The notes beneath the pieces were generated by a model. That model was given only the letters and a program-made list of their open reading frames with translations, had not been told where the DNA came from and searched no databases. Made by a program: the position numbers and the translations under genes. Shown here piece by piece: positions 36,605 to 39,438 of a DNA stretch of 46,707 nt. The stretch's first letter is position 1, and each line of letters begins with the position of its first letter. This DNA comes from Synechococcus sp. UW140 (lineage in GTDB: Bacteria > Cyanobacteriota > Cyanobacteriia > PCC-6307 > Cyanobiaceae), in the NCBI GenBank assembly GCA_945877115.1, contig CAMCQR010000006.1, forward strand, positions 1 through 46,707, in the 5' to 3' direction.

Positions 36605-37774
36605 ATGGCCCATCTGCTTGATCAATTGGCCAACATGACGGTCGTCGTGGCTGACACCGGCGAAATTGACGCCATCCGCCAGTTCACGCCCCGGGATGCC
36701 ACCACCAATCCATCCCTGATCCTGGCCGCAGCCCAAATCCCGGCCTACAACGAGCTGATTGACCGTTCGCTGCGGGAATCGCGCCAGCTGATCGGCAGCG
36801 AGGCGGCGGCGGAGGAGGTGGTCAAGGAGGCCCTGGATGAAATCAGCGTCACCTTTGGTAAGGAGATTCTCAAGATTGTGCCGGGCCGGGTGTCCACCGA
36901 GGTGGATGCCCGCCTCAGTTACGACACCGAAGCCACAATTGAAAAGGCCCACAAGCTGATCGGCCTATACCAGCAGGCCGGCATTGGCAAGGAGCGGGTG
37001 TTGATCAAGATTGCATCAACCTGGGAGGGGATCAAGGCGGCGGAACGGCTGGAAAAAGATGGCATTCATTGTAATCTCACCCTGCTCTTCGGCTTCTCCC
37101 AGGCGGTGGCCTGTGCGGAGGCAGGTGTCACCCTGATCTCGCCGTTTGTGGGTCGAATTCTGGATTGGTATAAAAAATCAACCGGGCGCGCTAGCTATCC
37201 AGGGCCAGAGGATCCCGGGGTCATCTCCGTCACCACGATCTTCAACTACTTCAAGACCTATGGCTATGCCACCGAGGTGATGGGGGCCAGCTTCCGCAAC
37301 ATCGATGAAATCATCGAGCTCGCCGGCTGTGATCTCTTGACCATCTCACCGGCTCTGATGGATCAATTGCGCAACACCGAGGCTGTGTTGGAGCGCAAGC
37401 TGGATGCCGCCAGGCCTGGCCCCAGCCCGGATCGGATTCATGTCGATCAGCAGGTGTTCAAAACGATGATGGCCGAGGACCCCATGGCCAGCGAAAAGTT
37501 GGATGAGGGCATTCGCGGTTTCTCCAAGGCGATCGAAACCCTGGAGGCCCAACTGGCCCATCGGCTGGCGGTGCTTGAGGGGGGAGCGGCCTTCAATCAT
37601 GCCGTTCACGAGATTTTTCTGTTGAACGATCTCGATGGCGATGGTTGTATCACCCGCGAGGAATGGGTGGGCAGTGATGCCGTGTTTGATGCCCTCGACA
37701 CGGATAAGGATGGCCGCCTCGTGCCCGAAGATGTTCGGGGTGGCTTGGGCGCCCCCCTGGCGATTCGGCGCTGA
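36605..37774 (+). CDS. tal: transaldolase with C-terminal EF-hand pair
   Basis: Class I transaldolase of the pentose phosphate pathway, transferring dihydroxyacetone units between sugar phosphates. The ~320-residue barrel carries the N-terminal [10 protein letters not shown] and the Schiff-base Lys in [11 protein letters not shown], followed by [11 protein letters not shown]. An extra C-terminal domain holds two EF-hand calcium loops: residues 342-353 ([12 protein letters not shown], all ligand positions standard) and 365-376 ([12 protein letters not shown], Asp instead of Glu at position 12). I recall this fusion in picocyanobacterial transaldolases. It suggests calcium-sensitive control of the dark, oxidative carbon route, which is inference. 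ATG at 36605. Confidence 0.95.
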
Positions 37775-37780
37775 AACCGG

Positions 37781-37796
37781 CCCCATAGGTATGGGG
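37781..37796 (+). terminator. weak hairpin downstream of tal
   Basis: CCCCATA-GG-TATGGGG forms a 7-bp stem just after the tal stop, followed within about ten bases by a short T-run (ATTTT). The loop of two bases is too tight for the full stem, so this is a weak terminator candidate. Confidence 0.35.
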
Positions 37797-37863
37797 GGGA
37801 GAGATTTTGGCTGGCGAAACGTCATCTGGTTAGAGTTACCTAGTCTCCTCCAGATCTTTTGCC

Positions 37864-38244
37864 GTGAATGCTCTCGACACCATGAAAGCCCTCGCCAGTT
37901 CCGGCGAGGTCAAGGAATTTGAACCTGGAGCGGCGATCTTTCATTCTGGAGAGCCAGGAGACTGCATGTTTGGCCTCCTGGAAGGGGAGGTAGAACTCAG
38001 CTGGAACGACGCGGAAGGTCAGGAGCAGATCAATGCTGGTGATGTCTTTGGAGCCGGAGCCCTGGTAACCCAGGACCACCGGCGTTTCGGTGATGCTCGT
38101 GCGATGACGGCCTGTCGCTTGCTGGTAATGAATCGCGAGAAGTTTCTGTTTGCGGTGCAGGAATCACCGATGTTTGCCGTTGAGCTGCTGGCCTCCATTG
38201 ACCAGCGGCTCCGCCAGCTCAAAATCACCGATCGTCGCCATTGA
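37864..38244 (+). CDS. stand-alone cyclic nucleotide-binding domain protein
   Basis: A 126-residue single cNMP-binding (Crp-type) beta-roll with no DNA-binding helix-turn-helix. Visible elements are GEPGDCMFGLLEGEVEL (strand-turn), AGDVFGAGALV (phosphate-binding-cassette region, but lacking the usual Arg-Ser/Thr-Ala pair for cAMP), and a C-terminal helix (AVELLASIDQRLRQLK). GTG start at 37864. The last six residues (ITDRRH) come from the second copy of a 61-bp tandem duplication that shifts the frame; without it the protein would run on to the TAG at 38309-38311. Its role could be a small ligand sensor; the ligand is unknown. Confidence 0.82.
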   Translation: MNALDTMKALASSGEVKEFEPGAAIFHSGEPGDCMFGLLEGEVELSWNDAEGQEQINAGDVFGAGALVTQDHRRFGDARAMTACRLLVMNREKFLFAVQESPMFAVELLASIDQRLRQLKITDRRH

Positions 38245-38283
38245 GTCGCTGGCCTCGATTGACCAATGGCTCCGCCAGCTCAA
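38162..38283 (+). repeat. 61-bp tandem duplication at the 3' end of the cNMP-domain gene
   Basis: Two directly abutting 61-base copies, 38162-38222 and 38223-38283, both beginning AATCACCGAT and ending CCGCCAGCTCAA, with about nine mismatches by my count (roughly 85% identity). Because 61 is not a multiple of three, copy 2 is read one base out of frame and supplies the present stop codon at 38242-38244. In its own frame copy 2 still encodes a near copy of the same helix (S-I/L-A-S-I-D-Q-x-L-R-Q-L-K). Confidence 0.9.
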
Positions 38284-38291
38284 GGCATGCA

Positions 38292-38320
38292 TCAGCGGGG
38301 CTTGGGCCTAGCCCCGCTGA
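38292..38320. terminator. bidirectional hairpin between cNMP-domain gene and oxidoreductase gene
   Basis: A perfect 11-bp inverted repeat TCAGCGGGGCT / AGCCCCGCTGA with a 7-base loop (TGGGCCT) sits at the convergent junction. It includes the stop codon of the minus-strand gene (38308-38310). No long T-run follows, so it may terminate weakly or protect 3' ends of both transcripts. Confidence 0.6.
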
Positions 38321-39438
38321 AACAGCAAGCGCCGGATCACCCGCTGGGCGATGTCGCCATAGCCCATTTCGCCCGAGAGGATCTGGGCAATGCGTTTGGG
38401 GGCGGTGGGGCGTTTGATGCCTAGCTGATAACCCACCCTGGGGACTCGGTAGAAGACCTGGGCGATCCGTTTGCCCCAGGCCATCGAGTCGCCCCAATCC
38501 TTGCGCATCGTCTGGCTGTAGCCGGCCAGGGCCAGATTGTCGCCAGCCAGCCAATCGTCCATGGCGCTGGCGGCGGCGCAACCACTGCGCAGGGAGGGCC
38601 TCAGTCCCTCCGCCAGAAAAGGATCACAGAGCGAAGCGGCGTCACCAACGGCTACTACCCCGTCCCCGTGCAGGGGATGGTGGCCATCCCAGATGCGCAA
38701 TTGCCCGCGGCGGCGATCGCCCGCCTCCGGGTCCAGCCCCAGGCTGGGCAACATGCGGGCCAGCACCGCATGGGCGTCCGCCTCCTGTTGGCCGATGAAC
38801 GTGCCCACACCGATGCTGTACCCCCCGCTGCGGGGGAAGGCCCAACAGAAGCCGTGGTGCACCAGGCCAAATTCAAAGTGGGCCACGTCTGGAGGGCTGG
38901 GGGTTCCCTCCACTTCCACCGAGACGGTGGCGGCATAGCGGGGGCGGGCCGGCCCCAGGCCCTGGTCGGCGGCAAAGCGGGAGCTGGAGCCATCGGCAAT
39001 CACCAGGCCCCGGGCCTCCAGCTGGTTCCCCTGGCCATCGGTTAATTGCCAGCGGTCGCCCTGGCGGCTGAGGGCCGTGGCGGTGCACCCGTAGCGCAGA
39101 TCAACGCCCCGATCGGCGGCCTGGCCGGCCAGAAAGTCGTCGAGCACCCGGCGACGAACGATCCAGAAGGGGGCATCACCGGGCAACTCGGCCACCACCG
39201 GATCCTCCAGGCACCAGGTGAATCGCACCTGGCGGATCACCTGGTCAACGGCGGGCCGCAGGTCAAACGGAAACCAGCGCTGCACCGAGGCGGCCATGCC
39301 ACCGCCGCAGGGCTTGCCCCGGCCGGGGGCCTCTTTTTCGAGTTGAATCACCCGCCGTCCCCGGGCGGCCAGATGGAAGGCCGCCGCTGATCCGGCCGGT
39401 CCGGCCCCAAGCACAATGACATCGGCGTCGAGCGTCAT
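38308..39438 (-). CDS. geranylgeranyl-reductase-family FAD oxidoreductase
   Basis: A 376-residue flavoprotein. The N-terminal dinucleotide-binding motif is VIVLGAGPAGSAAAFHLA with an acidic end (LEKE), then GKPCGGGMA typical of the geranylgeranyl reductase family, and the second FAD motif GDGVVAVGDAASLCDPFLAEGL. It is shorter than ChlP (about 450 residues), so I do not assign chlorophyll phytyl-chain reduction; a role in isoprenoid or lipid reduction is likely. ATG at 39438, 2 bp after the frr stop, so it is tightly cotranscribed with pyrH-frr. Its stop codon lies in the hairpin at 38292-38320. Confidence 0.87.
   Translation of the reverse strand: MTLDADVIVLGAGPAGSAAAFHLAARGRRVIQLEKEAPGRGKPCGGGMAASVQRWFPFDLRPAVDQVIRQVRFTWCLEDPVVAELPGDAPFWIVRRRVLDDFLAGQAADRGVDLRYGCTATALSRQGDRWQLTDGQGNQLEARGLVIADGSSSRFAADQGLGPARPRYAATVSVEVEGTPSPPDVAHFEFGLVHHGFCWAFPRSGGYSIGVGTFIGQQEADAHAVLARMLPSLGLDPEAGDRRRGQLRIWDGHHPLHGDGVVAVGDAASLCDPFLAEGLRPSLRSGCAAASAMDDWLAGDNLALAGYSQTMRKDWGDSMAWGKRIAQVFYRVPRVGYQLGIKRPTAPKRIAQILSGEMGYGDIAQRVIRRLLFQRG

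Follow-up and report, generated by a model that had tools for sequence, protein, structure and literature searches.

A frame-shifting 61-bp tandem duplication near the stop codon of a small cNMP-domain gene of Synechococcus sp. UW140

The cNMP-domain gene, its neighbours and the repeat

Our study centred on the closing part of a small gene of Synechococcus sp. UW140, within a stretch of 46,707 nucleotides of contig CAMCQR010000006.1 that was analysed as a whole and is referred to below as the window. The encoded protein has a Pfam match to PF00027 (cNMP_binding) over residues 17-99 (E 3.2e-18; 65.9 bits, above the curated cut-off of 27.5). The features of the region are as follows.

36605-37774, forward strand: transaldolase with C-terminal EF-hand matches (open reading frame and profile match)
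37864-38244, forward strand: gene that runs from a GTG start to a TGA stop and encodes a small protein of 126 aa with a cNMP-binding domain as its single domain (open reading frame and Pfam match)
38162-38222, forward strand: copy 1 of the 61-nt unit, read in the original frame: SPMFAVELLASIDQRLRQL
38223-38283, forward strand: copy 2 of the 61-nt unit, with a one-base frame shift; otherwise found only in L033/G036
38224-38244, forward strand: new C-terminal tail ITDRRH and stop codon TGA (38242-38244) from the frame shift; ITDGRH and TGA in L033
38284-38311, forward strand: what is left of the earlier gene end, ACISGAWA then TAG in the old frame, now outside the reading frame
38292-38320, no strand assigned: inverted repeat rich in GC, spanning the convergent stop region, with 14-nt arms that are 93% complementary
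38308-39438, reverse strand: gene for an FAD-dependent oxidoreductase, convergent (open reading frame and profile match)

A preliminary description of this DNA had reported two abutting copies of 61 bases, about 52/61 identical, and three approaches agree with it. In the alignment, the two units abut without a gap and are identical at 52 of 61 sites. TRF, run on the 46.7-kb window with periods of up to 500, returned 38162-38283 with a period of 61, 2.0 copies, 85% matches, no indels and a score of 181, the runners-up reaching a score of 52 and a period of 21 at most; a separate repeat search returned the identical pair of 61-nt units at 85% identity. Chance similarity between the copies, an objection that the preliminary description had raised against its own reading, is rejected, since the best repeat score within 37501-38700 was 38.5, at offset 61, versus a maximum of 16.5 over 40 dinucleotide shuffles. 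The unit length is not a multiple of three, as befits a frame-shifting duplication, and only the first 22 nt of copy 2, including the stop codon, lie in the reading frame, the remainder forming a spacer. The open reading frame confirms the earlier statement that the present frame ends in ITDRRH, and the TAG at 38309-38311 does overlap the stop codon of the convergent oxidoreductase within CTAG, as had been described.

The domain itself departs from the FGE.AL motif of solved kinase domains, in which the glutamate contacts ribose. The corresponding residue is an alanine here (FGAGAL), and this A64 is invariant in 29/29 proteins of our alignment, which comprises 29 of 81 proteins picked for spread. 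Because the ribose-contacting glutamate is replaced, proteins of this family may have a different ligand or bind none at all.

Distribution among relatives and age of the duplication

Comparison with homologous genes, a check suggested by the preliminary description, showed one copy in nearly all relatives. A contig search for related loci yielded a named set (the best 80 of 127), each member of which was translated from its matched start and scored for its best repeat at offset 61. Among these best 80 of 127, 79 are without the duplication, and the one other carrier, L033 (JAPLIF010000155.1), belongs to Lac Pavin MAG 64_7. The next-closest relatives in the same best 80 of 127, L034, L035 and L036, which serve as the three nearest outgroups, are single-copy and end in RLRHLKGCISG followed by the stop codon. 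The picture was the same in a set of whole genomes made up of 41 congeners of the window genome, in 40 of which the gene end was read (23 via L004-L007, L011, L012, L014-L018, L020, L021 and L023-L032, and the remaining 17 via L135-L151): two copies were found in one of the 40, G036, the genome that also carries locus L033, and a single copy in 39. The 41st congener, G028, was left out, its only match being 47% identical and taken as a paralogue, in a genome that is 85% complete. The counts for the named and unnamed sets are not additive, because the sets overlap. Six extra loci from other genera of the family are all single-copy, as are the gene ends of G012, G025, G040 and G041, which aligned over the full 221-base DNA query at 66-67%. 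Of 400 genomes of the family, two (G000 and G036) matched a junction pattern allowing up to three mismatches, a count that more diverged copies may escape, and a search of plasmid records with positions 37864-38340 of the window gave no match. A family-wide two-copy layout with ITDRRH-type ends, the other outcome that the preliminary description had set against its reading, is thus rejected. One locus in these sets, L084, comes from a record titled as a Bifidobacterium breve MAG; the title looks mislabelled, since the record holds this cyanobacterial cNMP-domain gene.

Both carriers are draft assemblies (185 and about 380 contigs), and an assembler may in principle duplicate a stretch. We reject such an artefact, to which we give practically no chance, because the copies in the window differ at 9/61 sites and because the layout recurs in a second genome that has differences of its own and shares about 95% identity with the window in the neighbouring genes.

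To place the duplication in time, we used a FastTree tree of oxidoreductase and transaldolase DNA from 69 of 81 sequences, the window included; the other 12 had one or both of these neighbouring genes missing. The window and L033 are sisters in this tree (support 0.94), within a clade of five that also holds L034-L036 (support 1.0), and the two carriers are 95.0% and 95.5% identical in the two neighbouring genes. One duplication in their common ancestor explains these data, since the carriers are sisters. Relative to the outgroups, A44G is common to copy 1 of both carriers and T12G to copy 2 of both, which places the duplication before the split between the window and L033. From these comparisons the single copy is supported as the ancestral state, with the duplication derived, and the simplest history would be a single event before that split.

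The new protein end and the fate of copy 2

The frame shift falls directly after K120, where conservation stops: all 29 aligned proteins have L119 and K120, and residues vary from 121 on, the exceptions in the larger sets being R at 120 in L052 and I at 119 in L148. Beyond the junction the carriers differ from their single-copy relatives, a tail of five residues (GCISG) having become one of six (ITDRRH in the window, ITDGRH in L033), so that the protein has 126 residues versus 125. The preliminary description had proposed that a longer tail was lost, which is contradicted by the GCISG ends of the single-copy sisters, the window protein being one residue longer. Its broader claim of a frame-shifting tandem duplication in a one-copy ancestor that replaced the C-terminus agrees with the relatives, the tree and the protein ends alike. 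The new tail is six codons long because the copied codons ATT GAG contain an out-of-frame TGA. This TTGA is present at the codon pair in 21/80 relatives (best 80 of 127), L033 included, in a tally that misread one of the 80 loci (motif not found), and the short new tail thus depended on the codons of the lineage. In the corresponding tally of tail lengths, two loci (L104 and L108) came out at one residue, probably from a second LK in the tail. In an AlphaFold2 prediction (best of five models, mean pLDDT 82.5), the last helix spans residues 102-124 and residues 121-126 have a mean pLDDT of 49; since the predicted helix ends there and confidence in the tail is low, an effect on the fold is unlikely.

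What became of copy 2 was read from changes polarised by parsimony, over 61 nt in two genomes. Copy 1 has undergone four changes across both lineages (one nonsynonymous, three synonymous) and copy 2 has undergone ten, of which 7-8 are nonsynonymous in the old frame, one leucine change being path-dependent. The nonsynonymous share expected by chance is about 71%, close to that of copy 2, and no coding constraint on copy 2 was seen in these polarised changes, a comparison of low power with ten changes in two genomes. The preliminary description had held that both copies were under coding constraint, and in this it is not borne out; of the mostly synonymous or conservative pairs on which it relied, F/V, V/I, S/S and Q/Q are indeed present, but so are M/I, L/S and R/W. 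The copies differ in a way that suggests relaxed constraint on copy 2, although the difference is not significant (10 versus 4 changes, p 0.18; 8N:2S versus 1N:3S by hand counts, Fisher p 0.095, a contrast that would weaken further if the leucine change were scored as synonymous). Neither carrier has a stop codon in the old frame of copy 2. This is no evidence of use, since the chance that the old frame of the unit stays open is high, about 84-86% after 5-6 changes and 77% after 10. Copy 2 looks untranslated and decaying.

These same changes bear on the idea that ribosomes now and then slip by +1 at the junction sequence CTC AAA ATC, which has four A, and so return to the old frame; the product would be a longer protein in which the C-terminal helix is repeated. 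In its favour are the AAAA junction, identical in both genomes, and the open old frame just described. However, AAA ATC is translated in the zero frame as well, which could alone account for its identity, and the changes in copy 2 are not only mostly nonsynonymous and near the neutral expectation but also strike helix residues (L>S, R>W or R>G, F>V). The old-frame ends are, moreover, unlike each other in the window and L033. The constraint in the alternative frame that marks programmed +1 frameshifting was not found in this small sample (7-8/10 nonsynonymous versus about 71%). We consider such slippage very improbable, and the chance that two forms of the protein are made, a short one ending in ITD(R/G)RH and a longer +1-slip form with the repeated helix, is just as slender.

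The old gene end has also changed. TAGGG is kept there in L033, L034, L035 and L036 (alignment judged by eye), and the old-frame stop of the window has moved to CTAG because one base is missing at the former TAGGG (likewise by eye). The CTAG/ISGAWA end, taken in the preliminary description as the original one, is rather a later change in the window genome, the relatives having kept the earlier TAGGG.

Origin and significance of the duplication

The duplication lies where two genes converge, and the distance between their stop codons is 63 and 64 bp in the carriers versus 3, 10 and 7 bp in L034, L035 and L036. Selection might have retained it for this reason, the stop having been moved off the hairpin and the convergent end, with easier termination or less transcript collision as the benefit. 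A hairpin is indeed predicted in both carriers (z -3.41 in the window and -2.08 in L033), and the inverted repeat at 38292-38320 is a possible candidate for a two-way terminator; the folds of the single-copy sisters are mixed (z -2.36 in L034, 0.12 in L035 and -0.77 in L036). Against selection, the inverted repeat is without a T tract, no consensus terminator was found in 37700-38700, and the spacing is not tightly held, since its values in 77 of 81 sequences lie between -43 and 125 bp (L059, L070, L075 and L104, with a convergent frame of at most 330 codons, were left out of this list). The four-base overlap of stops, as with CTAG, occurs in 11 of these 77 and is absent from the three single-copy sisters. 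We consider retention by selection improbable, though somewhat less so than the ribosomal slip.

We have high confidence in the explanation as a whole, in which one ancestral tandem duplication swapped the tail, left a spacer and then drifted nearly neutrally. In the common ancestor of the window and L033, a 61-bp segment close to the stop codon of the cNMP gene would have been duplicated in tandem, probably by replication slippage or illegitimate recombination; homology at the ends of the unit is at most about 1 bp (by eye), and the GC-rich hairpin downstream perhaps assisted. As the sequence shows, copy 1 preserves the reading frame of the conserved C-terminal helix region as far as K120, and the frame, moving by one base at the junction, meets TGA after six codons. 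ITD(G/R)RH has in this way taken the place of the sisters' GCISG, and what remains of copy 2, together with the former gene end, lies as a spacer between two stops. The duplication was probably tolerated because it lies just beyond the conserved part of the protein, and the change was presumably nearly neutral, as only a variable and probably disordered tail is affected, so that it would have been fixed by drift.

The nearest parallels that we found are in Andreatta et al. (2015, PMC4494051) and Osmanli et al. (2025, PMC12871928); closer ones may be in print. In the cases outlined by the former, an indel upstream of the stop codon takes that codon out of the reading frame, and the former C-terminus gives way to new residues, 45 of 54 additions in yeast being frameshifts (Andreatta et al., 2015, PMC4494051). 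The C-terminus in the window was likewise replaced through a frameshift near the stop. As outlined there, however, those cases concern extensions that are polymorphic in yeast and fly and derive from noncoding sequence, whereas ours is a bacterial 61-bp tandem duplication in two species, the tail comes from the gene's own shifted copy and protein length is hardly altered. Frame-shifted tandem repeats have been compared across 50 proteomes, and that account mentions duplication with frameshift as a way in which new protein function has been proposed to arise (Osmanli et al., 2025, PMC12871928). Our case resembles those described there in the frame shift within a tandem repeat, but only 22 nt of copy 2 are in frame and a new function is not indicated.

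On the sequence comparisons made here, the most fitting reading of the event is a microduplication, a small mutation that is ordinary and nearly neutral, and our view of the protein and of the organism is unchanged by it. Its value lies in being a clean and datable case of a tolerated frame-shifting tandem duplication, in which the unread copy adjoins the read one and serves as an internal control.
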